DNA of 40,642 bases. Origin: Erysipelotrichaceae bacterium. Its GTDB lineage: Bacteria > Bacillota_I > Bacilli_A > RFN20 > CAG-826. This document shows, one piece after another, positions 2,888-40,642 of the stretch. The position numbers and the translations under genes were made by a program. The stretch covers positions 1 to 40,642 of the forward strand of contig JALFFX010000007.1 of the NCBI GenBank assembly GCA_022777645.1, read 5' to 3'. The notes beneath the pieces are model-generated. The model saw nothing but the letters and a program-made list of their open reading frames with translations, had not been told where the DNA came from and did not search any database. The first letter of the stretch is position 1, and each line of letters opens with the position of its first letter.

Positions 2888-2892
2888 AAAGA

Positions 2893-2926
2893 AGGACAGT
2901 CAATCAACTGTCCTTTAAATTTTTAA
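2893..2926 (+). terminator. rho-independent terminator of the hydrolase-DUF3737-MalY operon
   Basis: A perfect 8-bp stem, AGGACAGT (2893-2900) with ACTGTCCT (2907-2914), has a 6-nt loop and is followed by a T-rich tract. It lies 6 bases after the stop at 2887. Confidence 0.85.
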
Positions 2927-2950
2927 TAAGTCGTATTTAATATAAGATTA

Positions 2951-3367: not shown

Positions 3368-3396
3368 AAATTTTTAACCTCCAAAATTAATTAATT

Positions 3397-5085: not shown

Positions 5086-5140
5086 ATAATTGGCCTCCGA
5101 ATTTATTTTAACATGTTAAATAAAACTTTGTTATTTTTGC

Positions 5141-5854
5141 TTATAAATTGATTGTTAATCTTTCATCGATTTTTGTATTATCTTCATTATATTTAAGAGC
5201 GTTTATCTCTTCGATATATAATTCTTTGATTTTTTCATCTGGAATATTGTTTAAAATTATTTTTATAAGTTTTGTTAATGTATCTTTTCCTAATGAAAAG
5301 AGAATATTATGGTGATAAACATAATTTCTTAATTTTCGTGTGTTATCTAAATCAGAAATAATATTGGGATTATCTGAAAATTTTTCAACAATCTTAGCAG
5401 GAAGATGAGACATGATTAAATTGATATCACCAAAATCTAATGTTTTTATCGCATCATAATAATCAACTGGCCCATATTCATATGAAAATGTTCTAATATC
5501 TAAAAATTCATTTTTGCCTACAGGGATTTTGAAATAATATTTTGTTTTTGTATAATTGCTTTCTCTTTCTTCGATTTGAACGCGATAATTATTAAAATAA
5601 TTGCTTAAAAATGCTTTGACATAATTTTCTTGATTTTTAAGCATCGAAAATAATATGCAAGATAATTTTTGATCATAAATCATGAATTGTTCAAATATTG
5701 AAAAATTGATTTGATCAAATTCAATTAATTCCGTTATATCTTCATACATCTCAATGCATTTATCAATGCCTAAAGAAAGAAGGTATTTTTGAAAGCGATT
5801 TTCTTCGTTTTCTTTCACTTCCAAACGGTTTCTTAAATATGAAATTTCATCCAT
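5141..5854 (-). CDS. Abi_2-like (AbiD/AbiF) HEPN-domain protein
   Basis: A 237-residue cytosolic protein. The segment LDFGDINLIMSHLP, then KLRNYVYHHNILFS near residue 180, matches the Abi_2 pattern of an FG..l..l stretch followed by lRN..aHHn.lf. RNYVYH is an RN-x3-H variant of the HEPN RNase motif. An N-terminal helical part with DQKLSCILFSML.N resembles the ..d..LR..l...i..iE. region of the family. Members of Abi_2 are phage abortive-infection proteins thought to be RNases. Here it sits alone upstream of pgcA rather than in the 27-32 kb defence cluster. Divergently transcribed from the next gene. Family assignment is by motif only. Confidence 0.6.
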   Translation of the reverse strand: MDEISYLRNRLEVKENEENRFQKYLLSLGIDKCIEMYEDITELIEFDQINFSIFEQFMIYDQKLSCILFSMLKNQENYVKAFLSNYFNNYRVQIEERESNYTKTKYYFKIPVGKNEFLDIRTFSYEYGPVDYYDAIKTLDFGDINLIMSHLPAKIVEKFSDNPNIISDLDNTRKLRNYVYHHNILFSLGKDTLTKLIKIILNNIPDEKIKELYIEEINALKYNEDNTKIDERLTINL

Positions 5855-5931
5855 AGTTATATATTTATAATATAATTATTATCTAAAACATTCAAACCTT
5901 ACGCTTTCAAATTATTGACTATTATCTTCCT

Positions 5932-5956
5932 TATAATATTATGAAAGTAGGAGGAA
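5932..5956 (+). promoter_or_regulatory. -10 box and start-deciding ribosome site of the choloylglycine hydrolase gene
   Basis: TATAAT lies at 5932-5937. TAGGAGGA at 5949-5956 is placed 5 bases before the ATG at 5962. The ribosome site falls inside the longer reading frame that begins at 5941, so that upstream ATG is not the real start. No good -35 is seen at standard spacing. Confidence 0.7.
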
Positions 5957-5961
5957 GTATT

Positions 5962-6939
5962 ATGTGTACTGCTATTGCAAAGACTTTGAATGACGGACGA
6001 TATTATTTTGGTCGTAATCTTGATTTCAATCATCCTTTTGGCGAATCTTTTATTATCGTGCCAAGAAATTATGAAATTAGATTAACTAATTTTGATAATA
6101 TTAAGCATCACCCCACAATTTATGGCGTTGGTCTAATCATGGATAATTTTCCAATGCTTTTTGATTGCGTTAATGAAAATGGGCTTTGCTTTGCAGGACT
6201 TAATTATCCTGGCAACGCCACATTTTTCGATAAAAAAGATGGTAAAAATAATATTGCCACTTTCGAATTAGCGCTTTACCTATTATCAACATTTAACAAA
6301 GTTAAAGACGTCAAAGCATTTTTAGAAAACGCGAATATAACTAATCAAATGTTTTCTCAAGATGTTGCCCCAGCAACACTTCATTATATTTTTAAAGATG
6401 AAGATGATTGCATTGTTGTTGAGCAAGATAAAGACGGCCTTCATATTCATGATAATCCTTATGGTGTTTTGACAAATAATCCATCATTTTCATGGCACGC
6501 CTTAAACATCTCAAATTATATGAATATATCGAATAAAGAAGGTGTTAATCGCATCTTGAAAGATATCGATGTTCCACGTTTTGGCAAAGCGATGGGGGCT
6601 TTATCACTGCCTGGTGATTCATCTCCTGTTTCGCGTTTTGTTAAAGCAACGTTTTTGCTTAACAATGTTGATTTCTTTGCTGATGATATTAAAAATATCA
6701 ATCAATGTTTCCACATCTTAAACAATGTATCGACTCTTATCGGTGAAAGTGTAATGGATGATGAGACACGAGAATACACAATTTATTCATCGATATATGA
6801 TCTAAAAAACAATAAATTATATTTAAAGACATATGAGAACCATCAATTGTCTTGCCTTGATATCAACAAATTCAATTTAGATGATACATCGCTTCTTACA
6901 TTTGCGATAAATCGACAAGAGAATATTGATAATATATAA
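5962..6939 (+). CDS. choloylglycine hydrolase family (bile salt hydrolase / penicillin V acylase-like)
   Basis: A 325-residue Ntn-hydrolase. I place the start at 5962, not at the in-frame ATG 21 bases upstream, because a GGAGG lies between them and because this start puts Cys at position 2. After Met removal that Cys is the catalytic N-terminal nucleophile. The other expected residues are present: Arg 18 and Asp 21 (GRNLDF), Asn 81 (FAGLNYPG), Asn 172/173 (LTNNPSF) and Arg 225 (SPVSRF). There is no signal peptide, so it is cytosolic. Likely reaction is amide hydrolysis of conjugated bile salts, which fits a gut organism. Penicillin V or acyl-homoserine lactone acylase activity cannot be excluded by sequence alone. 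Confidence 0.9.
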   Translation: MCTAIAKTLNDGRYYFGRNLDFNHPFGESFIIVPRNYEIRLTNFDNIKHHPTIYGVGLIMDNFPMLFDCVNENGLCFAGLNYPGNATFFDKKDGKNNIATFELALYLLSTFNKVKDVKAFLENANITNQMFSQDVAPATLHYIFKDEDDCIVVEQDKDGLHIHDNPYGVLTNNPSFSWHALNISNYMNISNKEGVNRILKDIDVPRFGKAMGALSLPGDSSPVSRFVKATFLLNNVDFFADDIKNINQCFHILNNVSTLIGESVMDDETREYTIYSSIYDLKNNKLYLKTYENHQLSCLDINKFNLDDTSLLTFAINRQENIDNI

Positions 6940-6983
6940 TTAGATTACCAACAAAAGACGATTACATTTTGTTTATATATAGA

Positions 6984-9900
6984 ATGAAAAAGTTGTATTC
7001 ATTATTAGCCACACTTTCAATAAGTGCATTTTCATGTGCTTTATTATTCGCTAACAAAGATAGTGTTAAGACAAATGCAATAACGCTTCCAAATACGATT
7101 ACGCTTAACGATACAAGCGAAGAGGATATTAGATCTTATTATTCTTATCTAGACACTCTTCCTGAAAGCGAAAGAAGAGGGACAAATCTTTTAAAGAATC
7201 TTAAATATATTTTGGTCAATAATCCAAGTAATACTGCTAAACCAAGTCGATATTTTACATATAACCAAGTCCGCAGCATCTATAACATCACTGACCGTGA
7301 ATGGATTTCATCACCAAAAGAAAATATAAGTGGCTATGATGCTTCAACAAATACCATAACTAGCTATTCTTATAGCAGCGAAACTCCTAACTTATATTAT
7401 TATTATCGCGCGGATAATTTTACTAACCCTCATGCAACAAACGCGAAAGTGACAAGCTCTGATTCAAAAACACAAACATTGCTCAACCAAGAGCATCTTT
7501 GGTCAGTTTCTCATGGCTTTAAGCCCACATCATCATCAAGTGCAGTAGAGAATGCTGGAACTGATTTACATCATCTTGTTGCTGGTGACGCCACTGTTAA
7601 TAAATGGGGTCATAGCAATTATACATACGGAAATGTTGATGTCGAAGACTCTGATTGGATAAGCACAAAAACTAGATGGGATAACGGGGATAACGCTATT
7701 TTGGGTAATAAAAGAGGGACTCCAAAATATGTTAATCCATTAAATAAATCACAAATTGTATTTGAACCACAAGATGCTGATAAAGGTGATATTGCAAGAG
7801 CACTTATGTATATGGCAGCAAGATATAACCATTATGATGGCACTGCCTCAAGCGCATCAATTGCTGAACCTGATCTTGAATTGGTTGATTATTCAACTGA
7901 TGAATCAGTAACCATTACATGTGATGGCAAAAACGGAACTGGTAAATATGGCATATTAAGCGATTTATTATCTTGGCATAATACAATCGATCCAATTGAT
8001 ATCTCCTCTAATAGTGGTTATTACGAAGTTCATCGCAATAATCTCATCTATGAGAATTATCAATATACAAGAAATCCATTCATTGATTTCCCTTCTTGGG
8101 CAGATTATGTTTGGGGCAGCAAAAAAGATAGTGGAGCAGTATCACCAAGTAGTGATTCTCTTTATTCATATGAAAGTGTTGCTAAGCCCACTTCATTTAC
8201 GCTTAACACTACTTCATTATCGCTTACAAGTGGTGAAACATTCCAAGCACAAATTGAATCAATCACTCCATCTGATGCATCAAAATCCTTGATTTGGTCA
8301 ACAAGTGACGAAAATGTTGCAACTGTTTCAGAATCAGGTTCAATTAAAGCCGTTGGTGTTGGCAGTTGTATTATTAACGCAAAATCATCACTCGACAACA
8401 ATGTATCAGCATCTATTTCAATTTCAATAAGCGGAATAAGCGTAACTGGAATTAGTTTAAATAAAACATCAACAAATCTTAATATAGGCGCAGAAGAGCA
8501 ATTAACTGCAACAATATCACCAAGTGATGCCACTAATAAAAATATTGTGTGGAGCAGTAGTGATTCTTCAATTGTAAGTGTTGATAATGGACTAATAAAA
8601 GCACTTCAAGCTGGACAAGCAACTATTAGTGCAACAAGTGAAGATGGTGATTTTTCTGCCACTTGCCTTGTCAATGTATCATCTTCTACAAATACAAAAT
8701 ATTATGAAAAGATTGAGTCCACATCATCTTTAACAGATGGCAATTATATTATTGCGTGTGAATATGCATCAATCGCCTTTAATGGTGGGCTTTCTCAAGC
8801 CGACCTTGTCGCTTCAAATAATAATGTATCTATTTCAACATATCTTAATATAGCAACAAATAGAATTGAAAGCAACGCCACAACTGATGGATTGATATTT
8901 ACATATAATGCCACTGAAAAGACACTTAAATCTGCAAGTGGATATTATATTGGTACGAATTCCTCATCTGCTAGTATAAACGCGAGCGATACAACTAAAT
9001 ATCAGGTTAATATTACTTTCTCAGCTGATGGTGATGCATTAATTGCATCAAAGACTCAATCAGCGATGGTTTTGCAAGTATATCAATCAAAGAACTTTAA
9101 ATTTTATTCTTCAAGTCAAAAACCAGTTCAATTATATAAATTGATGGACAGTGGTTCATCAAGCGGAAGTGTTGTTACTTCCTCTTATAAACTAGTCAAT
9201 ACCTTAGAAGATGTCACAAGTGGACAATATGTCATCGCTGCCTTACACAATAATACATATTTTGGTTTAAGCAATACATTTCCTGCTACTGCTGGTTATG
9301 TTTCTGCTACAGCATTAACTGTTAGCAATGATTCTTTAGTTGGTGATGTTTCAAGCTTTGCAGTCAGCATTGTTAGAACAAATAATTCAATAACAATAAG
9401 CAATGGAACAACTTATCTTTCATATTCTGGTAGTAGCACGAATATGATCGAAAGTTCAAATGCCTATTCTTTTACAATTTCTCTTGCAAACAATATTGGA
9501 ACATTTAACCTAGCTGAAGCAACTTCTGGTCGTTCATTATCATATTCGACAAGTGGCAATTATTTTAAAGCATATGCATCGATTAAAGCAGGCACATACT
9601 TAAATATTGAACTATTTAAATATGAGGAAGTTACAGTTACATATACTGCTTTAGATTTTGCAAATGACTTTATGAATAGTGTGATTTGTGATGCAAATGG
9701 AGTTAATAAACCAACATTTAAAAGTGGTTATTCATGGGATAAATTAAAATCTTTATATACAAGTCTTTCATCATCTGATCAAAGTCTTCTTCAAACTGCT
9801 ACCGCTATTGAATATAGTGATGATATTATCGCTAAAGCGATGTATCGATATGATTATATTGTCAGCAAATATTATCAAAGTGGAATCGATAAAAGTTTTG

Positions 9901-10058
9901 TTGATTTTATTACCCGTAATCCTATTTTGATGATTAGCAATAATTTTGATTATAGAATAATTCAAGATAATAACCTGGTTATTATTTTAAGTGCTATATT
10001 TATAACCATGAGTGTCGGTGGTATTCTAATAATAAGAAGAAGAAAAGCCGAACAATAA
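6984..10058 (+). CDS. large secreted endonuclease-I family protein with Big2 domains and C-terminal membrane anchor
   Basis: A 1024-residue surface protein starting at ATG 6984; an in-frame TTG at 6969 would only add five residues before a clear signal peptide (MKKLYSLLATLSISAFSC). Residues ~60-380 resemble endonuclease I/extracellular nuclease, with NQEHLWS (Glu 170, His 171) and GTDLHHLVAGDATVN (194-206). Two Big2 Ig-like domains follow (~402-483 and ~487-565). Next come two related beta-rich modules (~573-722 and ~734-883), both with a dGnYiIa / sGqYVIA-like opening. The end holds a ~90-residue helical module (889-980), a TM helix (~998-1017) and the tail RRRKAEQ. No LPXTG. Likely cell-wall-displayed nucleic acid scavenging. 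The C-terminal module recurs in the protein at 32789-34567. Confidence 0.85.
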   Translation: MKKLYSLLATLSISAFSCALLFANKDSVKTNAITLPNTITLNDTSEEDIRSYYSYLDTLPESERRGTNLLKNLKYILVNNPSNTAKPSRYFTYNQVRSIYNITDREWISSPKENISGYDASTNTITSYSYSSETPNLYYYYRADNFTNPHATNAKVTSSDSKTQTLLNQEHLWSVSHGFKPTSSSSAVENAGTDLHHLVAGDATVNKWGHSNYTYGNVDVEDSDWISTKTRWDNGDNAILGNKRGTPKYVNPLNKSQIVFEPQDADKGDIARALMYMAARYNHYDGTASSASIAEPDLELVDYSTDESVTITCDGKNGTGKYGILSDLLSWHNTIDPIDISSNSGYYEVHRNNLIYENYQYTRNPFIDFPSWADYVWGSKKDSGAVSPSSDSLYSYESVAKPTSFTLNTTSLSLTSGETFQAQIESITPSDASKSLIWSTSDENVATVSESGSIKAVGVGSCIINAKSSLDNNVSASISISISGISVTGISLNKTSTNLNIGAEEQLTATISPSDATNKNIVWSSSDSSIVSVDNGLIKALQAGQATISATSEDGDFSATCLVNVSSSTNTKYYEKIESTSSLTDGNYIIACEYASIAFNGGLSQADLVASNNNVSISTYLNIATNRIESNATTDGLIFTYNATEKTLKSASGYYIGTNSSSASINASDTTKYQVNITFSADGDALIASKTQSAMVLQVYQSKNFKFYSSSQKPVQLYKLMDSGSSSGSVVTSSYKLVNTLEDVTSGQYVIAALHNNTYFGLSNTFPATAGYVSATALTVSNDSLVGDVSSFAVSIVRTNNSITISNGTTYLSYSGSSTNMIESSNAYSFTISLANNIGTFNLAEATSGRSLSYSTSGNYFKAYASIKAGTYLNIELFKYEEVTVTYTALDFANDFMNSVICDANGVNKPTFKSGYSWDKLKSLYTSLSSSDQSLLQTATAIEYSDDIIAKAMYRYDYIVSKYYQSGIDKSFVDFITRNPILMISNNFDYRIIQDNNLVIILSAIFITMSVGGILIIRRRKAEQ

Positions 10059-27391: not shown

Positions 27392-27919
27392 TTAATCTAG
27401 CTGAGATATTGGGGTTTCAGGTAATTTAATGAATAATCTTTGTAAATAATTGAATATGTTAATACCATTCGCTCTAGCAGTTTGAATGATAGAGAAAATA
27501 ATCGCGGATGCTTTTGCTCCTTGAATGGTATTAGAAAATAAGAAATTTTTTCGACAAATAACAAATGGTTTTATTCCTCTTTCGGCAAGATTATTGCTCA
27601 AAGGGATATGACCATCTTCTAAGAATCTGGAGAGCTTTTCTTTTTGTTCTAATGAATAATTTATCGCTTTACGTAATGCCCCATCAGATGAATTTAACGA
27701 TGATGATGCTAGAGTAAAATATTCATCTAATATTGCTTTAGATTCTTTTAATCTTCTTTGTTTTATTTCATCAACAGTTTGACACTGATTATGATATTCT
27801 TCTTCTAAATTCAATAACTTATCGATTAATTTTATAAATTTTGATGATAAGGATGATTCTTTTGCGATCGCTAATCTAAAAGTGGCTCTTTCCAATAAAT
27901 ATTGATTTTTATGTAATTG
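27392..27919 (-). pseudogene. IS66-family transposase (TnpC) remnant, C-terminal part only
   Basis: The open frame begins after an in-frame stop near 27920 and has no convincing start; a TTG at 27895 is the first candidate. The last ~110 residues match the C-terminal end of the IS66 DDE transposase: LEDGHIPLSNNLAERGIKPF, then ICRKNFLFSNTIQGAKASA, IQTARANGI and NYLQRLF. That region carries the final catalytic Glu of the triad (NNLAER). The N-terminal zipper, zinc-binding region and first catalytic acids are missing, as are tnpA and tnpB. A functional IS66 TnpC is about 500 residues, so this is dead. The first residues (ERATFRLAIAKES) come from the right copy of the 25-bp direct repeat. Confidence 0.85.
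27861..27885 (+). repeat. right copy of the 25-bp imperfect direct repeat
   Basis: TTTGCGATCGCTAATCTAAA, the first 20 bases, shows the match to the left copy at 27149-27173 (four mismatches over 25 bases). It lies near the 5' break of the IS66 remnant. From 27920 to 28121 I see no gene, only a 17-codon frame at about 27991 (MRAFPFLQNYS...) after GAAGGA. Confidence 0.55.
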
Positions 27920-28747: not shown

Positions 28748-29884
28748 ATGAAGTTATTGAAATTTAAAGTTCCAAACGGCTATAAAATGTTAGAAAAAGG
28801 GTTTGAAGTTAGTTTTTTAACAAAAACCCGTGTAAATAAAAGCATTGAAAACGACGACTTAATAGAACTCGAGCCGGGTTTATTTTATCCGCTTGAAACA
28901 ACTTTTATCGGTAAGAACTCTTCCGGTAAAACATCGGTTCTTCTTTTAATTCACCTAATTATTAGTTTTATTAGAAGTGGAAGAATACCTGTCTCATTTA
29001 TGGCTGATCAAAACAGTTTTTCTTTAGAATTTTTATTTTACGATAATGGCTATATCTACCTGTATAACGGTAGTTTTGTTAGGTCTAGCCTCAACAACAC
29101 CGCTTTTATGATCATAGAAACCGAATCATTAAGAAGGACTACTTTTAAGAATAATTATAAAAAAGATTTAAGTAATATTTCTTTCTTAAAAGAAAATATA
29201 ATTATTCCAAACATCGGAAGTGACACTTCAGGAATTGCTAAATATAGATTCAATGACACTTCTATTCTTGTTGATATAATTTCTCAAGATTCCTCAAATC
29301 TTGCAACAATTATTGATGCCATTAAAAACATTTATGGAAAGGATTCGTTCAATGTACTCGTGAAATTATTTGATGATAGCATTGAATTAATTGATGCAAT
29401 AAGATTAGATGATAGTTCTGTAGCCTTTAAATTCAAACGCGTTAACCAACCAGAAATGACTGTTAGTATCGATTATTTGAAGGCTGTTCTTTCTTCTGGT
29501 ACATATCGTGGTATTTATCTATTTGCAGCTTCTCTTTTATCCTTTAGACTAGGCGGAGATATTTTAATCGATGAAATCGAAAAGAGTTTCAACAAAAATT
29601 TAATTGAAAACCTCCTGATTTTATTTAACGATAAAAGAATTAATAAAAAAGGTGCATCATTGATATATTCAACCCATTATTCTGAATTACTTGATCATAG
29701 CAATAGATGTGACAATATCAATGTTTTGCATAGAAACGGAGATGTTATAACTGTTAACAACATGTGCACGTCATATGAAATAAGAACCGATTTATCAAAA
29801 TCTAATCAGTTTGAGCAAAATGCATTTGATAACTTAACCAATTACGACAGATTAATGGATTTAAGGAGATTGTTACTTAAATGA
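28748..29884 (+). CDS. AAA family ATPase (AAA_15/21, OLD/RloA-like)
   Basis: 378 residues. Walker A is GKNSSGKTS (55-63), after an N-terminal strand pair. SSGTYRGIYLFAASLL (~247-262) takes the place of the ABC-like signature. Walker B is DILIDEIE (271-278) with catalytic Glu 276, and YSTH (307-310) matches the switch-His motif. This is the ATPase architecture shared by OLD nucleases, RloA, AbiLi, GajA and PtuA, but here no nuclease domain is fused; the C-terminal ~70 residues are short. The stop overlaps the start of the next gene (ATGA), so the two proteins are probably made in a fixed ratio and act together. An anti-phage role is inferred from the partner and the neighbourhood. Confidence 0.85.
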   Translation: MKLLKFKVPNGYKMLEKGFEVSFLTKTRVNKSIENDDLIELEPGLFYPLETTFIGKNSSGKTSVLLLIHLIISFIRSGRIPVSFMADQNSFSLEFLFYDNGYIYLYNGSFVRSSLNNTAFMIIETESLRRTTFKNNYKKDLSNISFLKENIIIPNIGSDTSGIAKYRFNDTSILVDIISQDSSNLATIIDAIKNIYGKDSFNVLVKLFDDSIELIDAIRLDDSSVAFKFKRVNQPEMTVSIDYLKAVLSSGTYRGIYLFAASLLSFRLGGDILIDEIEKSFNKNLIENLLILFNDKRINKKGASLIYSTHYSELLDHSNRCDNINVLHRNGDVITVNNMCTSYEIRTDLSKSNQFEQNAFDNLTNYDRLMDLRRLLLK

Positions 29885-30381
29885 AAATTTTGTTAGCGTG
29901 TGAGGGTAAAAGCGAGGTCTACTTATTAAATGGATTAATGGAAAGAGGCCACCTTTCTTTTGATTGTCCATTGCTGTTAGATGAGCCGATTCATTTAAGA
30001 CAATTAACCAAAATAGCGCAAATCATTAACTCGCTCCCTATCAACGAAGAAATAATAGTTTATCGCATTGGCGATACTTTAAAAGACGCACTTTCATTAT
30101 CTAATCTCGAAATGCGCAGCAAATATATTAAATCGTATAAATATTGTACTAAGCCAGAGGTTGAAATTTTGGTAATTATTAATGAAGGATTATATGATAA
30201 ATATATTAAAGTATCCAAAACTACAAAACCTAAAACATTCATCAATAAATATATGCCATCTTTTGATCCATCTAAATATTTTCATGAACACGATATGGTG
30301 TATGCACTTAGAGAGTATAAAAGAATCAAGAAGCATAAAGGAAATGAACTGTATTTAATTGATTTATTAAATATTAAGTAA
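29881..30381 (+). CDS. small TOPRIM/RloB-like partner protein of the AAA ATPase
   Basis: 166 residues. It opens ILLACEGKSEVYLLNGLM, the strand-turn-helix with EG.sE typical of TOPRIM/OLD-type nuclease subunits. IIVYRIGDTLKDAL lies where the D.D motif should be, with one acid seemingly lost. YCTKPEVEILVIINEGLYDKY is reminiscent of the RloB c.pefE.wll.h. region. So the order of features parallels RloB/AbiLii or a minimal TOPRIM protein, but the match is weak. It overlaps the ATPase gene by 4 bases. Best description: putative nuclease partner of a two-gene defence cassette. Confidence 0.5.
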   Translation: MKILLACEGKSEVYLLNGLMERGHLSFDCPLLLDEPIHLRQLTKIAQIINSLPINEEIIVYRIGDTLKDALSLSNLEMRSKYIKSYKYCTKPEVEILVIINEGLYDKYIKVSKTTKPKTFINKYMPSFDPSKYFHEHDMVYALREYKRIKKHKGNELYLIDLLNIK

Positions 30382-31050: not shown

Positions 31051-31644
31051 ATGATAATTACAACATCAATGCTTAGAAATAGATATAGTGATTATTCTAA
31101 TCCACTAGACAAGATTAAAAGAGATACAGATAGTGGAATGCTTTTTAGACTTACTAGAGGAATATATGAAACTGATGGTGGAGTTGAACCATGTTTTTTA
31201 GCCTCCTCTATATTATCTCCATCGTATCTTAGCTTTGATTGGGCTTTGTCTTATTATGGATTAATACCAGAGAAAGTTTTTTCAATTACTTCAGCATCAT
31301 TAAATATTAGAAAGAACAAGTCGTTTATAAATAAGTTTGGAAGATTTGAATATAGTGATGTTCCATCTTTAGCTTTTTCAGAAGGATTAACTTATTTAGA
31401 AAAAGATGAATACGCTGTAAAGATTGCTACTAAGGAGAAAGCAATTTGCGATTCCTTAAGTAAGTGGCGAGTGGTTAATAGCGTTAAATCTCTTAAAGAA
31501 TTACTATTCGTCGACAAAAGAATTGATGAAAAAGAATTCTCAACTTGTGATTTTAATTTGATGATGAGACTAGCATCTTTATATAAGAAAACGAATTTAG
31601 ATATTTTAATTAAACTAATTAGAAAGGAATATTACCATGAATAG
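31051..31644 (+). CDS. AbiEi-type antitoxin (type IV toxin-antitoxin, winged helix)
   Basis: 197 residues. The N-terminal winged helix has the wing GMLFRLTRGIYETDGG, where AbiEi proteins show ..gl..l.rGvY. The core then has PCFLASSILSPSYLSFDWAL and YYGLIPE, the classic AbiEi ..SYiSfesALsyYGLip pattern. YAVKIATKEKAICDSLSKW matches the later A.pEKALcD. region. The protein would repress its own promoter and neutralise the toxin without stable contact. It overlaps the toxin gene by 8 bases, the normal arrangement. Confidence 0.88.
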   Translation: MIITTSMLRNRYSDYSNPLDKIKRDTDSGMLFRLTRGIYETDGGVEPCFLASSILSPSYLSFDWALSYYGLIPEKVFSITSASLNIRKNKSFINKFGRFEYSDVPSLAFSEGLTYLEKDEYAVKIATKEKAICDSLSKWRVVNSVKSLKELLFVDKRIDEKEFSTCDFNLMMRLASLYKKTNLDILIKLIRKEYYHE

Positions 31645-32527
31645 TGTTATTGAAGCGATGCTTGCAAAGTATAATCCTAAAAATAATGAAGAAAGAGAAA
31701 ATGCAATTAAAGAAGTAATTCAAGAAATCGTTTTAGCGGGATTATCGCGTGGCGGTTTCTTTAAAAAAGCAGCTTTTTATGGTGGAACGTGCTTAAGAAT
31801 ATTCCATGGCTTAAATCGCTTTAGTGAGGATCTTGATTTTGCTTTATTAGAAAAAGATTCTAATTTTAATATAGAAGATTACTTTTCTGCTCTTAAAAAA
31901 GAATTCGAATCATATGGCATAGATATGATTATTGAGTCTAAAAATAAAAATGATAATAACGATGTTCAAAGCGTATTTCTAAAAGGGAATACATTAATGC
32001 TAATGATGTCTTTCTTCCCAAAAAGCGAAGATGCAAAAAGGGTAGTGTCTAACCAAAAGATAAAAATTAAGTTTGAAGTAGATACTGATAATCCTATTGG
32101 TGGAGTAACTGAATATAAATACAAAATGTTGCCCGCTCCATATGAGGTGCAAATATTTGATGAAGCAACTTTATTTTCAGGGAAGATACATGCTATTTTG
32201 TGTAGAAGTTATAAAAACCATGTCAAAGGAAGAGATTATTATGATTATCTTTTCTATATTGGCAAGGGAAGCAAATTCAATCTTAAATATCTTGAAAATA
32301 AGTTGAAAAATACTGGTGGAATTATAGATAATGATGAAACCTTAACATTGGATAAAGTCAAAGAATTTCTTAAAGCAAAATTTGAATCTATTGATTATGA
32401 ATCCGCTAAAGCAGATGTTTCCAACTTCATTAAGGACAAGGAAAGTTTAAAATTTTGGAAAAAAGAACTTTTTATTTCAACTCTTAATGAATTATCTCCA
32501 GTAAATTTAGTTGATATCATTAAATAA
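31637..32527 (+). CDS. AbiEii/AbiGii-type nucleotidyltransferase toxin
   Basis: 296 residues, MNT-fold nucleotidyltransferase. The key motif is YGGTCLRIFHGLNRFSEDLD (48-67), with Gly-Gly, Ser 63, Asp 65 and Asp 67. The C-terminal GKIHAILCRSYKNHVKGRDY, followed by YDYLFY, supplies the conserved K...R and RD.yDl elements. Members of this family block growth during phage infection by transferring nucleotides, in known cases to tRNA. Overlaps its antitoxin gene by 8 bases. All catalytic residues look intact. Confidence 0.92.
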   Translation: MNSVIEAMLAKYNPKNNEERENAIKEVIQEIVLAGLSRGGFFKKAAFYGGTCLRIFHGLNRFSEDLDFALLEKDSNFNIEDYFSALKKEFESYGIDMIIESKNKNDNNDVQSVFLKGNTLMLMMSFFPKSEDAKRVVSNQKIKIKFEVDTDNPIGGVTEYKYKMLPAPYEVQIFDEATLFSGKIHAILCRSYKNHVKGRDYYDYLFYIGKGSKFNLKYLENKLKNTGGIIDNDETLTLDKVKEFLKAKFESIDYESAKADVSNFIKDKESLKFWKKELFISTLNELSPVNLVDIIK

Positions 32528-32746
32528 CGCTTCTCGCTATCGTTTCCAGAAAGCATAAAACGAATCATAGATACCAAGCATATAGCAAATATGAAATTAA
32601 TGCAGTTCTTCTAGATTGTTTTGACGGAGATTAAGCTTCTCTTGGAATTGTAAAAAATACCTTGTTGTTTTTTCTCGGTGATAAATGTAGGTATTTGTCG
32701 ATTTTTCACATAACTATTCTGAGGTTTGCATTAATATGCCCAACAT
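32528..32746. other. gene-free stretch after the AbiE pair
   Basis: About 220 bases with no intact gene. A short plus frame (RYQAYSKYEINAVLLDCFDG...) ending near 32633 looks like a protein fragment but is not recognised. Confidence 0.4.
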
Positions 32747-32778
32747 ATAAAAAAGCGTAGCTATTTTTAACTACGCTT
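32747..32778 (-). terminator. terminator of the sensor-GH3-CBM operon
   Basis: An 8-bp stem AAGCGTAG/CTACGCTT (32753-32760 and 32771-32778) is followed on the minus strand by six T residues. It lies 11 bases beyond the stop of the last gene. Confidence 0.92.
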
Positions 32779-32788
32779 ATAAATATAA

Positions 32789-34567
32789 TTAGATATGTTT
32801 CTTACGAAGGACAATATAACCAATTGCAGTTATGGAAAGAAGTCCGATAACGCATATCACAGTGACAAATGCGTTATTCTTAATATTGAAATTACCTGCA
32901 AATGGTGAAACTAAACTAATAACACTTCTATTCATGAAGTTAACATATTTTGATGTGCCATATTTAGCAATAATATAGTCATATGTTGCAACCATTACTT
33001 CAAGATCGTCGCCATCTGCTCTGCCAGTAGCTGATGAAATTTTTGTTTTTACTTCATCTTCAAGATTGTTATAGATTTCCGCAACTTCGTTCCATTTACC
33101 AACACTTGGAGCTGTATTGCCTGTAGGATCACATGTTACTGTTGTGGAGAAATTACCAGCAAATTCAAAGGCCTTTTTATTAACAGTATCAATAGTTGTT
33201 GGTGTTAATGCAATTTTATCCCAGTGTCCGCTTTCTGAACCACTATTAGCGACAAGTTTAATTGTATTAATGCCTTGAATGATTTCAATGTTATTTAATG
33301 TAACGCTATCCCAAAGAAGATATAAGTATCTTCCGTTAAGAGAATCGCCATTTGATTGGGCGTTGTAATTACGGTTTTGTGGATCAGCTTCACCTGCTGC
33401 TTTTCCAGCAAATTTTAATGATGAATCAATGCTAACTAATTTATCATTAACATATAATTTGATAGCGGTTGCCAAATATAAATCAGATGCAGAATAATTC
33501 GATGTATTGATGCCTTTATTTGTGGCACCTGTTAATACCAAATCGGCTTTATAAAATTCATCACTAACAAAACTCCATTCCATATATTTGCCTTCATCAA
33601 ACATATGTATAAAACCATCGTTGCTTGCTTTATATGGTGCTTCGTATCCTAAATACGCTTCTTTGTGAAATGCTCCATATTGACATGCATCATATTGATT
33701 ACCATTCTCATCTGTTCCAATTTTTACAGCATCTGTAGCCATATTTTCACATTCAATTGTTGTAGTGTTATTTAATGTAACAGTGTCTTCTTTTCCGATA
33801 AGTTCAATATAATCATATTGACCACTTGCAGCCTTAACTTTTGTTGTAAACGTAATAGTGTTAGTTCCTTTATTAAGGACAACAGTTCCTAATGATACTG
33901 TTTTAAAGATTTGGGTCATATATCGACCATCAAGATTGCCTTCTGCTTTTACTTGGCTCTCTTTTGTTAGGCCATATTTTGCTGCCCCAGTTACATTTTG
34001 TTGTGGATCGGCAGTTGCGTCATTTCTTCCTTCAACAATCGCTGTTTCAGGAATTGCAATTGAATTGCCATTAACGCTAGCTGATAATACGGTAGTTAAA
34101 TTTAAAGTACCAATTGAATAATTTGTTTTATTAACATTTGATGAAACACGTACACGTAATTCCGCTCTTGTACTATATGGAGCCTCAAAAGTAAATGTTG
34201 ATTTACCATTTTCGTCAGAGGTGATATATCCTCCTGTTAAATTAACTGTTCTTTCAACTGCTTTATCGTTGATGTAGACAGTTCTTGTTTCTTCATTATA
34301 TGGTGAGCATGCATATTCGCCAGTGTAATAATGAGCAACGAAATTTCTGATGCTTTTAAAATTGTTGTCGTAGCGGGCAGCACTTCCTGATAATTTTACG
34401 GTGTAATCTTGTCCAACTTGCTCATAACCTTTGATGTTTTCACATTCCATCTTTTTATAAAAACTTTCAGTGGCGGCTTCGGTTCTTACTGTTTGATGGC
34501 TTTTTAATAAGGCTGGAGCAAGAAGAGATGATGCAATAGCGAGAGTGAATATAATTTCTCGTTTCAT
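32789..34567 (-). CDS. secreted, membrane-anchored protein with two CBM35/CBM6-like modules
   Basis: 592 residues. The signal peptide (residues ~4-22) is followed by a divergent carbohydrate-binding-like module (38-256, starting KMECENI, ending ASGQYDYIEL). A second module (268-456) starts IECENM and contains YGAFHKEAYLGYEAPYKA, AAGEADPQNRNYNAQSNG, LNGRYLYLLWD and SGHWDKI. That second module is closely related to both modules of the sensor protein at 37532-40087. Residues 465-556 form the helical anchor module shared with the nuclease at 6984-10058. A TM helix (~566-586) and the tail LRKKHI end it. No catalytic domain is visible. Third gene of the operon, 3 bases after the GH3 gene. Confidence 0.8.
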   Translation of the reverse strand: MKREIIFTLAIASSLLAPALLKSHQTVRTEAATESFYKKMECENIKGYEQVGQDYTVKLSGSAARYDNNFKSIRNFVAHYYTGEYACSPYNEETRTVYINDKAVERTVNLTGGYITSDENGKSTFTFEAPYSTRAELRVRVSSNVNKTNYSIGTLNLTTVLSASVNGNSIAIPETAIVEGRNDATADPQQNVTGAAKYGLTKESQVKAEGNLDGRYMTQIFKTVSLGTVVLNKGTNTITFTTKVKAASGQYDYIELIGKEDTVTLNNTTTIECENMATDAVKIGTDENGNQYDACQYGAFHKEAYLGYEAPYKASNDGFIHMFDEGKYMEWSFVSDEFYKADLVLTGATNKGINTSNYSASDLYLATAIKLYVNDKLVSIDSSLKFAGKAAGEADPQNRNYNAQSNGDSLNGRYLYLLWDSVTLNNIEIIQGINTIKLVANSGSESGHWDKIALTPTTIDTVNKKAFEFAGNFSTTVTCDPTGNTAPSVGKWNEVAEIYNNLEDEVKTKISSATGRADGDDLEVMVATYDYIIAKYGTSKYVNFMNRSVISLVSPFAGNFNIKNNAFVTVICVIGLLSITAIGYIVLRKKHI

Positions 34568-34570
34568 GGA

Positions 34571-37519
34571 TTAGTCCTCCTTGTTTTTCTTTGTAAACAA
34601 ATCGTCATTGCTCTTTGAGAAATATGCAAAATATAGCATTACCACAATGGCGTCGATGAAGATGAAATTGACTCCAACAACTGCAATTTCAAAATATGGA
34701 TATCCTCTTGTTACAGTTGTGACAGTTTCAGTTTCATTAAGTGAATAATATTCAGTTGAGCAAACGGTGAATAAGATATTCTTAACAGATTTTCTAACAT
34801 TGTTAGCAACTGTCATATCGCTTGCCCAAGAAGAACCTAGGTTGTGGGAGAAGGATTGTGCACCATTAAGCCATAAATCATTGCCGGCTGCAATGCCTTG
34901 TTTGGCATCGCCTGCGTTTCCCATCCAGTCAGTGACGACTGAGCCATTAAAGCCCCATTCATCACGAAGTATTTCTGTTAATAATGGATAACATTGTCTA
35001 GCAGTAACGCCACCAACGCGATTGAAGGCGCTCATCATTGCGTTAGCTTTTCCAACTTTAACTGCGATTTCAAATGGACGTAAATAATTTTCACGTAAAG
35101 CTTGTTCGGTTGTCCAAGTATAGACATTTCCTCTATTTGTTTCTTGGTCGTTTAAAGCAAAGTGTTTTATATATGCATATAAATGACCTTTTAATGCGCC
35201 TTTAACTGTATAAGCAGCGCTATAACCACTTAAGATTGGATCTTCAGAATAATATTCATTGTTTCTGCCACCAAATGGTGAACGACGAATATTCGCGCCA
35301 GGAGCATACCAACCACTTACACCAGTTGATACGCCTTCATTGGCAACAACATTTCCGTATTCTTCTGCTAATGCTTTATTAAATGAATTAGCGATTAATC
35401 CAGCCATTGGGAACCAAGTCCATTGACTTGTTTCAGTAACAGAAGCGTTACTTCTTGTTAAACCCATTGGTCCATCGTTATCTCTTAACCAGATTTTGCC
35501 AACGCTTAATGCTTCACAAGTGGAATATCCACCCATAGCAATTAAATGTTCAGCATCTTCAATCGTGACTTGATTAAGGAGCAAGTCCCATTTTTCATTG
35601 TTATAGTCTGCTCCTAATTCTTTCATCAGTTCACTATTGGCTTTGATTTTTGTACCATCTGGTTCTTTTAATAAACCGACATCAGTGATTTTGCTTCCGT
35701 CAAGATTTGTATATAAATATAAGCCATTATCTTGACCAAATGTTGGAAGCGTATCATAACTATTTTTTGAATTTACTGTCCCATTAGCGGTGCTATGTGC
35801 GACAGTGACATTTTTGAATGTATTTTTAAAATCTGCTCTTGATAAATATAAACTTGTATCATTTCTATCTAATGGAGTTACGTTTGTGGCATCTGCTCCT
35901 GTAAAACGATTTTTAACATCATTATTAGTAACAGGATCTTTTGCAAATTGATAATTAGCAGCAAGATTTAATGAGAATTTTGTTGATTCGTTTTTAATCT
36001 CGTGAGCGTTAACCATCAATTTAAAGATATATTCGCCAGCATCAAGCTCAAAGCCTTTAAAACCATTATTGTTTTTGTCATAGCAATCATAACTTGCCAT
36101 ATAATATGGGTCGATTGATAACTTGACTGTTTCACTTTCTCCAGGTTCTAATAATTTTGTTTTGGCGTAGTCAATTAAATTAATTGATGATTTTTCAATT
36201 TCTCCTGATTTATAAGGAGGTTCATAAAATAATTCAACGACTTCCTTACCTGCTTTATCTCCGGTATTGGTGACTTTGACATTTACTTCATATTGATCTG
36301 TGGCAAGTAATTCACCAACTGGTTTATCGACTATTTCCCAGTCAAAGGTGGTGTAGCTCAATCCACTTCCAAATGGATATTGGACAATTCCATCATAACC
36401 AGTTTTGACATTGCTTTTGTATGCTTCTTTTGCAGTATATCCATCCCAATAGCCCATTTTGTCGGCAGTTTCATACCATTTATAGCCAACATATATATCT
36501 TCAACATATGTAACACTTGAACTTGCTAAACGTCCAATATTATAAAATGATGGATTTTCTTTATGATCAGTGACAAGTGTTTCAGTGATTCTTCCGCTTG
36601 GGTTGATATCGCCAGTTAAAATCATTGGTATTGTGCTTGCGCCGCTTTGACCAGTGACACCGATATAATAGACGTTATCGATTTTGTCATCTTCAAACGC
36701 CCCACATTCAATCATGTTTGTGCAATTGAGCAAGACAGTGACATTATCAAAATTATTTTTAACCATATCAATCATGTCGATTTCATCATCGCTTAATGAT
36801 AGGTAACCTCTTGTCTCATCTTTGACTATTGATCCACCTTTGGTGGAATAATTGTATGTATATGTTTGAGGACAATCTTGAGCTTCTCCACTTTGACGGG
36901 ATAAAACAATTATTGCTGAGTCTGAAAACTCTTTAGCGTCTTCCAATAAAGTTTTGCCATTAACATTATTAGATGCATTGGTGTACTCGCTTACTTTTGG
37001 ATTGTAATTTGTATATAATTTGTCGTTTCCGCCGAGTGATTCGCTTACTTGTCGTGCTGAGCAAAAGTCTTCATAGAAGCTTTTCAAATTGGTGTTATAT
37101 TCAATTTTCTTGTTTGGGTATTTTTGGTTATAAGTATCAAAACCTTTGTAGAGCAATACTCTTTTGTTTTCTGGGATACGAGATATTCCTGAACCATAAC
37201 CTGAAATTAAAAATCCAGCATCAATACTTGACCATCCAAAGATATTGACTTTCCTATTTTTTGTTGGATTTTCAGGATCATAGGCAAAAGGAGCTTTGTG
37301 TGATGTATTTTTAAGCATTGTCACACCTTCTTTTACAATGGTGGACACAAATTCATTGCCTTTTTCTAATACTTTTTCATCATATGTAACTTTGGTAGGA
37401 TTTAAGCCATCGTTAATGAAGTCGTAATATTTGTTATAAAGAACATTTGCCGCGACGGTAACCCCTGTTAATAAAGTGGCGGCACTTGTAAGGATAATTC
37501 GTTTAATTTTCTTGTTCAT
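34571..37519 (-). CDS. GH3 family glycosidase (beta-glucosidase-like), domain-permuted, membrane-anchored at both ends
   Basis: 982 residues. An N-terminal TM helix (~6-27) acts as uncleaved anchor. The usual GH3 C-terminal parts come first: the sandwich-like domain (VKEGVTMLKNTS, VNIFGWSSIDAGFLISGYGS) and an FnIII-like domain (VKVTNTGDKAGKEVVELFYE near ~440). The TIM-barrel domain then follows: WLRDNDGPMGLTR, KHFALNDQETNR and SVVTDWMG, whose Asp (~864) is the expected nucleophile. This reversed order is known from Ruminococcus albus-type beta-glucosidases. A second TM helix lies at ~943-967 with a charged tail. It would cleave oligosaccharides at the outer surface. It starts 12 bases after the sensor gene, so it is cotranscribed. 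Confidence 0.9.
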   Translation of the reverse strand: MNKKIKRIILTSAATLLTGVTVAANVLYNKYYDFINDGLNPTKVTYDEKVLEKGNEFVSTIVKEGVTMLKNTSHKAPFAYDPENPTKNRKVNIFGWSSIDAGFLISGYGSGISRIPENKRVLLYKGFDTYNQKYPNKKIEYNTNLKSFYEDFCSARQVSESLGGNDKLYTNYNPKVSEYTNASNNVNGKTLLEDAKEFSDSAIIVLSRQSGEAQDCPQTYTYNYSTKGGSIVKDETRGYLSLSDDEIDMIDMVKNNFDNVTVLLNCTNMIECGAFEDDKIDNVYYIGVTGQSGASTIPMILTGDINPSGRITETLVTDHKENPSFYNIGRLASSSVTYVEDIYVGYKWYETADKMGYWDGYTAKEAYKSNVKTGYDGIVQYPFGSGLSYTTFDWEIVDKPVGELLATDQYEVNVKVTNTGDKAGKEVVELFYEPPYKSGEIEKSSINLIDYAKTKLLEPGESETVKLSIDPYYMASYDCYDKNNNGFKGFELDAGEYIFKLMVNAHEIKNESTKFSLNLAANYQFAKDPVTNNDVKNRFTGADATNVTPLDRNDTSLYLSRADFKNTFKNVTVAHSTANGTVNSKNSYDTLPTFGQDNGLYLYTNLDGSKITDVGLLKEPDGTKIKANSELMKELGADYNNEKWDLLLNQVTIEDAEHLIAMGGYSTCEALSVGKIWLRDNDGPMGLTRSNASVTETSQWTWFPMAGLIANSFNKALAEEYGNVVANEGVSTGVSGWYAPGANIRRSPFGGRNNEYYSEDPILSGYSAAYTVKGALKGHLYAYIKHFALNDQETNRGNVYTWTTEQALRENYLRPFEIAVKVGKANAMMSAFNRVGGVTARQCYPLLTEILRDEWGFNGSVVTDWMGNAGDAKQGIAAGNDLWLNGAQSFSHNLGSSWASDMTVANNVRKSVKNILFTVCSTEYYSLNETETVTTVTRGYPYFEIAVVGVNFIFIDAIVVMLYFAYFSKSNDDLFTKKNKED

Positions 37520-37531
37520 CTTTTTGCCCCC

Positions 37532-40087
37532 TTAGTTATAGAATTGAAAACTCATCTTGTCGAAATGGCCAGAACCGGTTTCGCCATCTCTAAGTGGAAC
37601 GAGTTTAATTTTATTTTCACCTTTATTTAATTTAACAAGATCGATATAGTCTTCATCCCAAAGAAGATATAAATATCTTCCATTGAGAGAAGCACCATTG
37701 GATGTCGCGTTGTAGTTACGATTTTGAGAATCGGCTGCGCCTGCTGCTTTTCCTTCGAACTTGTTAGTATCGCTTATAAGAGATGAGACATCTTCATTAT
37801 TAACATATATTTTGAAAGCATCCTTCCAAATCAAATCACCTGCTGAGTAATTTGTTTTATCAATGAGATAATTTGTTGCACCCGTGATTGAAAGACGACC
37901 ATAACCTTCTTTTTCAGTTGTTATTGTCCATTCCATAGAAGCACTTTCAGGGGTGGTACGATAATCAAAATTATGAACAAAACCTCTTCCGCTTGCTTCA
38001 TATGGAGCAGTGTAACCTAAATATGCTTCGGCGTGGAAACTTCCATAGCTACATTTTGAATCGATAAAATCAGTTTTATAATTATCGCCAGTTTGTTTTA
38101 GATATGAACAATAGTTAAGAGTCATATCTTCACATTCTTTATTGTATATAGTGCCAGTTAATGTTTCAGGAACTGTTGGAGTTTCGCTTCCTCCGCTTCC
38201 TCCGCCTTCTTCTGAACCAGAACCGCCATTTTTATATGGTGTGATATCAAATTTGATACTATCCCAATGTCCACTTGATGAATTATTTGCGGCAGTTATC
38301 GTTATTGTGTTTTTACCAACTTTTAAATCAACACCCTTGATTGTGACATCTGTCCAGAGAAGATATAAATATCTTCCGTTTAAGGAGAAGCCAGTTTCTT
38401 CATGAGTTGTGTTTCTATTTTGTGGATCAGCTGCACCTGCTGCTTTGCCAACAAAATTATCAGTTGTTTTGATCTTAGAGTTAATTGAAACCCCATTTAA
38501 TTCAATGTTTGCGGCTGTTCCAACATTTAATGCGGTAGCAGAATAGTTACTTGTATTAACAATATTTGTCGCGCCTCTTAAAATTAAGTCAGCCTTGCCG
38601 CCACCTAAAGCGTTGAATGAATATGTCATGCTGGCACCTCTGCTCACATCAAAGTTATGAACAAAGCCTTTGCCGTTTGCTTCATATGGAGCGTTATAGC
38701 CAAGATAAGCTGCTGCATGGAAACTACCATATGCACATTCATCGATATAATTTGTTAAATAATTATCCCCAGTTTGTTTAAGTACTGATGCGCCTTCAAT
38801 TTCCATGTCTTCGCATTCAGTGTAATAATAATCTTCATTTAAATCGGAGTTATTTCCACCTGCTTCGATTCCTCCAGTGATAACAAGATCAAATGAAGCG
38901 CTGAAATTCACACCAAAATTTTCTGCGAAAATTGTATGAGTTCCATTTGTGGAAAATTTAGCAGGGAATGTAACATCACCAGAAATGTTATCAACCCAAC
39001 TATATTTACTTGGATCAATAGTTATTTCTTCGCCTGTGCTTTTAGTTCCTTTTATAGATATATCAGCAATATTTAATTCTTCAGTAGCACTTAATGTTGA
39101 ATATTTACATGTTGTAGTAACTCTAGAAACAACATCGACAGGAATTGAACTTGATTTTCCTTGTGAATAGTAAATATCAACACTTCTTGTTTCGCTTGTT
39201 AAAACTTGATTTGGACTAACTAATTTAATTTGATCATATGAATTATTTGTCGAATTTTGACCAATGGTGAATTTCTTTGATGTATCAGTGATGATTTCGC
39301 CATTGACATCATATTTGACATATAGCGATAATCCAGTTTTATCAAAAGTTGTATTTTCTTTTTGAACAGCAGGTCCTGAGGCAGCTTCTAAGCCAACAGG
39401 AGTAAAGACACCACTATAAGATCTATATACTGATATACCCTCAAGAAGAGTGGTAAAGGTATTTTCACTTGCCTCATCATAATAAGAAATTAAACAAGTT
39501 TGCTTTTTATTCGCGACGGTAAATGGATCTTTTAATTCGATATCATATCCAGTAATGACTTCTTCACTTCCTGAATCATATACACCTTTTACTTCAAGAC
39601 CATCACTATTGAATGTTTGGCCAACGACATAAGTCATATACGTCGGATTTTGTGATACATAAATTGATTGAAGATTGCCGAGGTTAACTTCACTTGTGGA
39701 ACTATCCTCAGGTTTTTCAAATGTTTTTAATAATCCACCAGTAATTAAGCCTGCGCCAGCGACGCCTGTTAATGCAAATAAGACAATCATGCATGTATCA
39801 ATGATTTTTCTAACAGGAGGTTTCTTCCCATTTGGTGGTGTTACTTCATCATTTTCTTTTGCTTTTGTTTGTTGCTCTGCTCTTTTCATCTCTTCTTCAG
39901 ACAAAAGCTCATCAATGCTAACACCAAAAATAGCAGCTAATTTTTTAACTGTTTCAATGTTCGGTAGTCTGGAATTATTTTCCCATCTTGTAATGGCGGT
40001 GCGATCGACAAACAACTTCTTCGCTAGTTCATCTTGCGTTAGTTTTGCTTGCAATCGATAACCTTTTAATTTTTCGCCAAAAGTCAT
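37532..40087 (-). CDS. transmembrane XRE-family regulator with extracellular Ig-like and two CBM35-like domains
   Basis: 851 residues in one uninterrupted frame. Residues 5-60 are a complete XRE/HTH_3 domain (LTQDELAKKLFVDRTAITRW, then LPNIETVKKLAAIFGVSIDE). A charged linker, a single TM helix (~97-119) and an extracellular part follow. That part has at least two Ig-like domains (~137-220 and ~225-405). Two related carbohydrate-binding-like modules close it (~423-616 and ~647-850), joined by GGSGSEEGGGSGGSE. Both modules begin ECEDM and share YGSFH..AYLGY.APYEA, LNGRYLYLLW and SGH.D. The layout predicts direct sensing of a glycan outside and DNA binding inside. An AAGGGGGG ribosome site precedes ATG 40087. 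First gene of the operon; probably controls it. Confidence 0.85.
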   Translation of the reverse strand: MTFGEKLKGYRLQAKLTQDELAKKLFVDRTAITRWENNSRLPNIETVKKLAAIFGVSIDELLSEEEMKRAEQQTKAKENDEVTPPNGKKPPVRKIIDTCMIVLFALTGVAGAGLITGGLLKTFEKPEDSSTSEVNLGNLQSIYVSQNPTYMTYVVGQTFNSDGLEVKGVYDSGSEEVITGYDIELKDPFTVANKKQTCLISYYDEASENTFTTLLEGISVYRSYSGVFTPVGLEAASGPAVQKENTTFDKTGLSLYVKYDVNGEIITDTSKKFTIGQNSTNNSYDQIKLVSPNQVLTSETRSVDIYYSQGKSSSIPVDVVSRVTTTCKYSTLSATEELNIADISIKGTKSTGEEITIDPSKYSWVDNISGDVTFPAKFSTNGTHTIFAENFGVNFSASFDLVITGGIEAGGNNSDLNEDYYYTECEDMEIEGASVLKQTGDNYLTNYIDECAYGSFHAAAYLGYNAPYEANGKGFVHNFDVSRGASMTYSFNALGGGKADLILRGATNIVNTSNYSATALNVGTAANIELNGVSINSKIKTTDNFVGKAAGAADPQNRNTTHEETGFSLNGRYLYLLWTDVTIKGVDLKVGKNTITITAANNSSSGHWDSIKFDITPYKNGGSGSEEGGGSGGSETPTVPETLTGTIYNKECEDMTLNYCSYLKQTGDNYKTDFIDSKCSYGSFHAEAYLGYTAPYEASGRGFVHNFDYRTTPESASMEWTITTEKEGYGRLSITGATNYLIDKTNYSAGDLIWKDAFKIYVNNEDVSSLISDTNKFEGKAAGAADSQNRNYNATSNGASLNGRYLYLLWDEDYIDLVKLNKGENKIKLVPLRDGETGSGHFDKMSFQFYN

Positions 40088-40319
40088 AGAGTGCCCCCCT
40101 TTTGAAAAATATTATTTGTTAACTATATTTTGTTTGGAATTGTCACATTTTGAAAGTGCTAAAATGACACTTATTTTAATTTTTTAAAAATATCGAAACT
40201 ATTATTAATATATTATATTAATAAGTATTTAATGTGACAGTAAAAATATTATAATATTTTTCTCTAAAATACTTGACAAAAAATTTAAAGGTCTGACTGA
40301 ATTGAGCATATTCTAAGCA
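40088..40319 (-). promoter_or_regulatory. upstream region of the sensor operon with candidate operator repeats
   Basis: A very AT-rich region. TGTCACATT (40142-40150) and AATGTGACA (40232-40240) are a perfect 9-bp inverted pair about 80 bases apart. A related AATGACAC lies at 40163-40170. Minus-strand TATAAT sequences occur at 40218-40213 and 40254-40249, the first just downstream of the AATGTGACA copy. These are plausible binding sites for the XRE domain of the first gene. The promoter position is not certain. Confidence 0.4.
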
Positions 40320-40320
40320 T

Positions 40321-40359
40321 AAAAAAACATCAAAACCGATTTTATATGGAATTGATGTT
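40321..40359 (-). terminator. terminator of glf
   Basis: On the minus strand AACATCAA-type and TTGATGTT-type arms (8 bp, 18-nt loop) are followed by a run of T residues (plus strand: AAAAAAA at 40321-40327). Confidence 0.8.
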
Positions 40360-40372
40360 ATTTTAGATGATT

Positions 40373-40642
40373 TTAGATTAATTTTTCAATTTGATTTAAG
40401 GCGAGTTCGATTACATCATCCATATCAAGATATTTATATAAGCCAAGTCGACCACCTAGATAAATATTTGGATATTTTTCTTTTTCTTCTAAATATTTTT
40501 TAACAAGATTCATATTTCTATCATCATTGATTGGATAATATGGTTCACTTGTTTCACTGGCAGGAAGTGGATATTCTTTGGAAATAATTGTTTTTTCTGA
40601 TTTATTGAATTTATTGAAGTGTTTATGTTCAATAATTCTTGT
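40373..40642 (-). CDS. glf: UDP-galactopyranose mutase, C-terminal part (cut by window edge)
   Basis: The last 89 codons, running off the right edge. Visible family segments are TRIIEHKHFN at the cut, TIISKEYPLP, SEPYYPINDDRNM and the FAD-binding end LGGRLGLYKYLDMDDVIELA. Glf converts UDP-galactopyranose to UDP-galactofuranose, a precursor for surface polysaccharides. It may belong to further polysaccharide genes beyond the window. It is separated from the sensor operon by a terminator. Confidence 0.93.
   Translation of the reverse strand, partial: TRIIEHKHFNKFNKSEKTIISKEYPLPASETSEPYYPINDDRNMNLVKKYLEEKEKYPNIYLGGRLGLYKYLDMDDVIELALNQIEKLI

Follow-up and report, generated by a model that had tools for sequence, protein, structure and literature searches.

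A putative membrane-tethered XRE regulator with predicted carbohydrate-binding modules heads a GH3 operon in an Erysipelotrichaceae bacterium

The window analysed here is the whole stretch of 40,642 nucleotides of contig JALFFX010000007.1 (assembly GCA_022777645.1) from an Erysipelotrichaceae bacterium. Towards one end of it lies an operon of three genes, which code in order for a fusion regulator, a membrane-anchored GH3 glycosidase and a membrane-anchored protein of 592 residues. The features of the operon and of its upstream region are as follows.

32753..32778, minus strand: intrinsic terminator at the operon end, 11-bp stem and T-rich tail
32789..34567, minus strand: 592-aa protein with two module copies and a C-terminal hydrophobic anchor; Shine-Dalgarno (SD) sequence AAGGAGG
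34571..37519, minus strand: GH3 glycosidase, 982 aa, GH3_C ahead of GH3_N (Pfam), hydrophobic segment at each end
37532..40087, minus strand: 851-aa fusion gene (HTH_3/XRE, linker, one transmembrane (TM) helix, Ig-like region, two predicted CBM-fold modules), intact 851-codon frame
37535..38179, minus strand: predicted CBM-fold module 2, residues 637-851, 49% identical to module 1
38222..38839, minus strand: predicted CBM-fold module 1, residues 417-622 (homology among copies; fold search of a model)
39506..39637, minus strand: Big_3 Ig-like domain, residues 151-194 (Pfam PF07523, E 4.7e-5)
39725..39802, minus strand: single TM helix, residues about 96-121 (hydropathy)
39905..40069, minus strand: HTH_3 (XRE) DNA-binding domain, residues 7-61 (Pfam PF01381, E 1.4e-15)
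40141..40278, no strand assigned: candidate operator, four TGTCA half-sites (post hoc)
40212..40279, minus strand: two overlapping sigma-70-like promoters (pattern scan)
40320..40365, minus strand: terminator-like hairpin after the stop of the glf-like gene

The preliminary description of this DNA had reported a single 851-codon frame at 37532-40087, and this is correct; the strand, which it left unstated, is the minus strand, and the plus strand has stops throughout the same interval. An SD-like AAGGGGGG precedes the ATG. The full XRE helix-turn-helix and the single membrane helix described earlier were also borne out. The HTH_3 match scores 57.5 bits against a cut-off of 23, and the domain is canonical with its recognition-helix consensus retained. 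The sole hydrophobic stretch of the protein spans residues ~92-121, and since the basic linker KKPPVRK stands just before it, the positive-inside rule places the N-terminus presumably in the cytoplasm. The protein thus carries in one chain a DNA-binding domain (HTH_3) and a TM region, the combination by which transmembrane transcription regulators (TTRs) are defined. Outside the helix the picture is less rich than first described: Ig-like domains in the plural had been claimed and only one, the Big_3 domain, could be shown. The remainder of residues 126-416 has no domain assigned, and a model of the whole Ig region built without an alignment gave an unusable fold with a pLDDT of only 31.7.

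The C-terminal half of the fusion protein consists of modules 1 and 2, which are homologous and of ~210 residues each. The 592-aa protein, product of the second gene downstream, holds copies three and four of the same module. Each of the four copies has an E-C-E motif in its N-terminal part and S-G-x-x-D towards its C-terminal end, which we take to be the structural calcium site usual in CBM35/36/6. The modules matched no CBM family in Pfam, neither CBM_35 nor CBM_6, a result that a divergent member could also give, and a profile of the module found nothing when solved structures were searched by sequence. A model built from the four-copy alignment was of modest confidence (mean pLDDT 57, pTM 0.65). 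When it was compared with known structures by Foldseek, the top match was 2w1w, a CBM35 of Clostridium thermocellum (E 3.6e-7), and the best-ranked matches were all CBM35/36/6-type modules or enzymes bearing CBM35, CBM36 or CBM6. A VIA alignment gave Z 13.5 over 135 residues at 2.5 A, above the warning level of the tool. The modules are therefore predicted to adopt the CBM35/36/6 beta-sandwich fold, an assignment of low confidence because it rests on a model of pLDDT 57. Of the two CBM35-like modules described earlier, the two homologous modules and their predicted fold stand, as does the expectation that the predicted structure would contain a CBM-like fold.

The GH3 gene begins 12 nt past the stop of the fusion gene with the SD sequence AAGGGGG, and each of the three genes has a good ribosome-binding site. 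Upstream of the fusion gene lies a gene that is glf-like by inspection, only the 89-aa end of which falls within the contig, and the terminator-like hairpin after its stop parts it from the operon (40312-40372 folds at -12.8 kcal/mol, z -4.1). With the glf-like fragment and the GH3 gene as its immediate neighbours, the fusion gene has no adjoining sigI. The two overlapping promoters read TTGTCA-17-TATTAT and CTGTCA-17-TATAAT, and such sigma-70-like matches are no more frequent in the scanned upstream region than in shuffles. Four TGTCA sites occur at 40141, 40165, 40235 and 40274; four within 285 nt are found in 0.9% of such windows on the contig, the pattern having been chosen post hoc. Two of them form a perfect inverted pair, TGTCACATT (40141-40149) and AATGTGACA (40231-40239), present once upstream of the fusion; a pair of this kind, likewise chosen post hoc, appears in 2.4% of shuffles. 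These sites are weak candidates for operator half-sites. No Rfam element was found in 32500-40642.

Beside the operon, at 31051-32527, is an AbiEi/AbiEii type IV toxin-antitoxin pair (PADLOC E 2.1e-58 and 2.8e-102). At 28748-30381 an AbiL-like AAA ATPase (PADLOC E 7.6e-25) is followed by an overlapping 166-aa protein without a family match, the two being a probable two-gene defence system. A truncated IS66 transposase remnant is present at 27392-27895. The IS66 remnant and the two defence-type pairs nearby suggest an accessory region as the setting of the operon. Farther away, 6969-10058 codes for a secreted endonuclease I of 1029 aa, which contains Big_2 domains and ends in a hydrophobic anchor.

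It was expected earlier that the fusion would be conserved in relatives. It is not, as searches of the genus, family, order, class and phylum recovered it nowhere else. Among 24 genomes of the genus neither the fusion nor its modules occur outside its own genome, and the many matches are to the HTH domain; among 224 genomes of the family (E <= 1e-11) the matches elsewhere are again to the HTH. The sole non-HTH matches elsewhere in the genus and family searches are short Ig-region matches in separate ORFs. A profile of the module, run against overlapping samples of the order (279), the class (395) and the phylum (392), found the genome itself and one weak match (G093). Viral contigs and genome contigs searched by the module motifs yielded none that could be confirmed, a DNA pattern for AAGxADxQNRN gave six matches in unrelated taxa, about the chance expectation, and plasmid and phage records contained HTH-TM parts only, with no fusion. 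In none of 18 CBM_6 regions from the class sample was the CBM_6 gene joined to an HTH. One locus (L160 of genome G249, 2182-8001) has an open frame of at least 1940 aa that matches CBM_6 and whose N-terminal part resembles membrane-anchored GH3 proteins.

The GH3 clusters sampled in relatives carry other sensing systems. Of four neighbourhoods, L130 holds a histidine kinase with a response regulator of AraC type, L131 and L132 have GHKL kinases together with LytTR response regulators, and in L133 a sigma factor precedes a one-TM protein. In the genome of the fusion itself, the second and third clusters with GH3 (contigs C7 and C60) have Big_3 or CBM-like surface proteins and no membrane HTH protein. 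Because the sampled clusters, from four relatives, hold differing systems, the sensor beside GH3 seems exchangeable, with the XRE-CBM fusion as one local solution. The fusion occurs in no other genome searched and the sampled related GH3 clusters carry two-component or sigma systems, for which reasons it looks like a recent, lineage-specific assembly.

The N-terminal part, on the other hand, has company. The closest HTH relatives in the family are mostly on membrane proteins, and 86 non-redundant HTH proteins in the fetched loci, a sample biased towards the HTH of the fusion and scored for topology by simple hydropathy, comprised 51 multi-pass, 13 single-pass and 22 soluble proteins. The earlier generalization that XRE regulators are usually soluble needs qualifying in this lineage, where XRE domains with membrane helices are common. 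Seven other single-pass HTH proteins, from the same family and class, have at least 190 residues past the helix (L037, L038, L074, L083, L135, L136 and L138); they share the XRE domain or domains and the one helix with the fusion and differ in their exodomains, which are of 190-340 residues, carry none of its modules and, beyond the M23 of L074, have no convincing Pfam match. L083 is single-pass with two HTH_3 domains. L074 (494-1654) codes for 387 aa in which one TM helix joins two HTH_3 domains to an M23 peptidase domain outside the cell, the same chassis with a cell-wall-related exodomain. L135 (5603-6898) and L136 (5756-7138), from two different families of the class, both other than that of the fusion, are HTH_3-one-TM proteins whose exodomains look alike by eye and have no Pfam match; this exodomain is possibly an undescribed sensor domain, part of which L037 may share. 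The preliminary description had asked whether such regulators always sit next to glycosidases. They do not, as no ORF in the fully listed neighbourhoods of L135 and L136 was recognised as a glycosidase by inspection; the neighbourhood of L037 has PfkB-like and RarA-like proteins. In L035 (1501-3135) and L050 (73-1707) HTH_3 is fused directly to phosphoglucomutase/phosphomannomutase in proteins of ~545-570 aa, and Pfam finds all four domains of the enzyme behind the HTH_3 of L050. ORFs of similar size with an HTH match occur across the genus and family (G017, G013, G012, G019, G070 and others). Such a fusion could possibly be a sugar-phosphate enzyme doubling as a regulator.

Proteins with a comparable layout are known. 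The characterised ToxR and CadC types have a winged-helix DNA-binding domain. The fusion differs from them in its XRE/HTH_3 domain, with no Pfam match to the winged-helix Trans_reg_C, and in its exodomain of predicted CBM fold. Its predicted topology is that of TTRs such as ToxR, CadC and TcpP, with a cytoplasmic DNA-binding domain, at least one TM region and an exodomain (PMC10269533). The survey of Demey (2023) counted 50,302 TTRs, in which HTH was the commonest DNA-binding domain, 56% were single-pass and ~57% were without a recognised domain beyond the DNA-binding one (PMC10269533). The RsgI anti-sigma-I factors of Clostridium thermocellum carry C-terminal extracellular sugar-binding sensors (CBM3, CBM42, PA14, GH10), and they control polysaccharide-degrading genes (PMC12203970). 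The fusion resembles them in its one TM helix and, by the predicted fold of its modules, in such a sensor, and it may likewise control genes of this kind. In place of the sigma-binding N-terminus of RsgI, to which no Pfam or NCBIfam match was found at E <= 1, the fusion has its XRE DNA-binding domain. The genome paper of Saccharophagus degradans (2008) put forward AraC and LytTR factors in the membrane, encoded next to cellulases, as detectors of polysaccharide outside the cell, which is the same idea of membrane one-component control of adjacent degradation genes (PMC2386152). Those factors are of AraC or LytTR type with 2-7 TM regions, and a CBM exodomain is not described in the sections of that paper considered here (PMC2386152), whereas the fusion is XRE with one TM helix.

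Taken together, an intact XRE domain, one TM helix, an exodomain of predicted CBM fold and a place at the head of a GH3 operon that has an upstream region to itself make glycan sensing at the membrane the best reading of the protein. In its favour also count the upstream TGTCA sites, the sensing systems that the sampled GH3 clusters of relatives each carry, and the commonness of tethered HTH regulators, most of them single-pass (PMC10269533). We consider it somewhat probable, slightly beyond even, that the fusion, tethered to the membrane, is a one-component regulator which detects a glycan outside the cell and directly switches its own GH3 operon. In such a system the cytoplasmic XRE domain would bind the upstream region of the operon, the single helix would anchor the regulator, and the Ig-like stalk would display the two CBM35/36-like modules outside. 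Glycan bound there could alter the oligomeric state or the clustering of the tethered XRE domains, and this change would switch the three genes. The regulator would most likely turn local glycan use on and off and regulate its own gene as well. The sensed glycan is probably the very material handled by the GH3 enzyme and the 592-aa protein, because the 592-aa protein has this module too and one operon unites all three; by the common module the regulator and the 592-aa surface protein may bind the same ligand.

Other readings have to be weighed against this, of which a surface protein merely anchored by its HTH-TM part and release by proteolysis deserve the most attention. It is rather unlikely that the protein is first of all a surface glycan-binding protein helping GH3 to hold its substrate, and a regulator second or never, with the HTH-TM part captured as an anchor. 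The exodomain is indeed far larger than the HTH, the fusion is not conserved, and the other GH3 clusters of the same genome (L128 and L129) have secreted proteins with Big_3 and CBM-like parts and no HTH; however, those secreted proteins carry ordinary signal or anchor segments, the gene heads its operon as a regulator gene does, and an unused HTH would be expected to be lost, whereas this one has strong family scores and is intact without sign of decay. Regulated proteolysis, in which glycan would cause first the stalk and then the helix to be cut, and the freed XRE domain would act on the operon and possibly elsewhere, is an unlikely route, modelled on RsgI signalling, where RseP cuts within the TM helix once glycan has been sensed (PMC12203970). 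The genome has a gene for an M50 site-2 protease, but its presence is no evidence for proteolysis because such proteases are near-universal (14 of 14 control genomes), and a self-cleaving periplasmic domain was not recognised in the fusion protein.

A role in cell shape or the cell wall, with the HTH binding a protein partner instead of DNA and the exodomain binding cell-wall glycan, would agree with the topology of RodZ, which likewise has an HTH, one TM helix and an exodomain. It is nevertheless very unlikely, as the HTH is HTH_3 with its recognition-helix consensus kept, neither the HTH_25 nor the DUF4115 of RodZ was matched by Pfam, and the context is a GH3 operon and not the cell-wall genes of the RodZ context. 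Finally, an assembly or frameshift artefact could have united a regulator gene with a binding-protein gene, and the fusion does come from one genome only, in a 73-contig assembly, with its start near a contig end. The contig ends at 40642, 555 nt past the start codon, so the gene is not at the broken edge. The codon score of the single long frame is above zero in 17 of 17 blocks of 50 codons (0.11-0.43) and negative all along in the other two forward frames, GC and GC3 are alike in the HTH, TM, Ig and module parts and in adjacent genes, the linker and TM helix are naturally placed, and relatives show the HTH-linker-TM design too. A joining artefact is unlikely because the coding signal is uniform through the junction, and we regard its probability as minimal.

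The glycan-sensing regulator proposed here is made of known components. In the literature searched, which covered few subscription papers, no described example of a membrane-bound XRE regulator with CBMs was found, and to this extent the novelty claimed in the preliminary description stands; it does not extend to the tethering itself, as tethered HTH regulators are widespread (PMC10269533), nor to the idea of membrane regulators beside polysaccharide enzymes, which had been proposed earlier (PMC2386152). The novelty seems to lie in joining XRE to modules of predicted CBM fold, a combination that would serve an RsgI-like purpose with no sigma factor involved. That an XRE regulator uses CBM modules of its own to read extracellular glycan directly, in an RsgI-like strategy that needs neither sigma factor nor histidine kinase nor uptake, and arose by an exodomain swapped onto a common HTH_3-TM chassis, is a tentative proposal that falls somewhat short of an even chance. 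Selection of the fusion as a unit lacks the support of conservation, since it is present in one genome only.

If the proposal is true, it would offer a genetically simple glycan biosensor. For the bacterium it would mean compact, single-gene sensing of an insoluble or large glycan without import. It would suggest that HTH_3-TM proteins, which are common in these small-genome bacteria, serve as a chassis for varied outside sensors, and it would give one testable answer to what role is played by the large number of single-pass regulators that have no known input domain.
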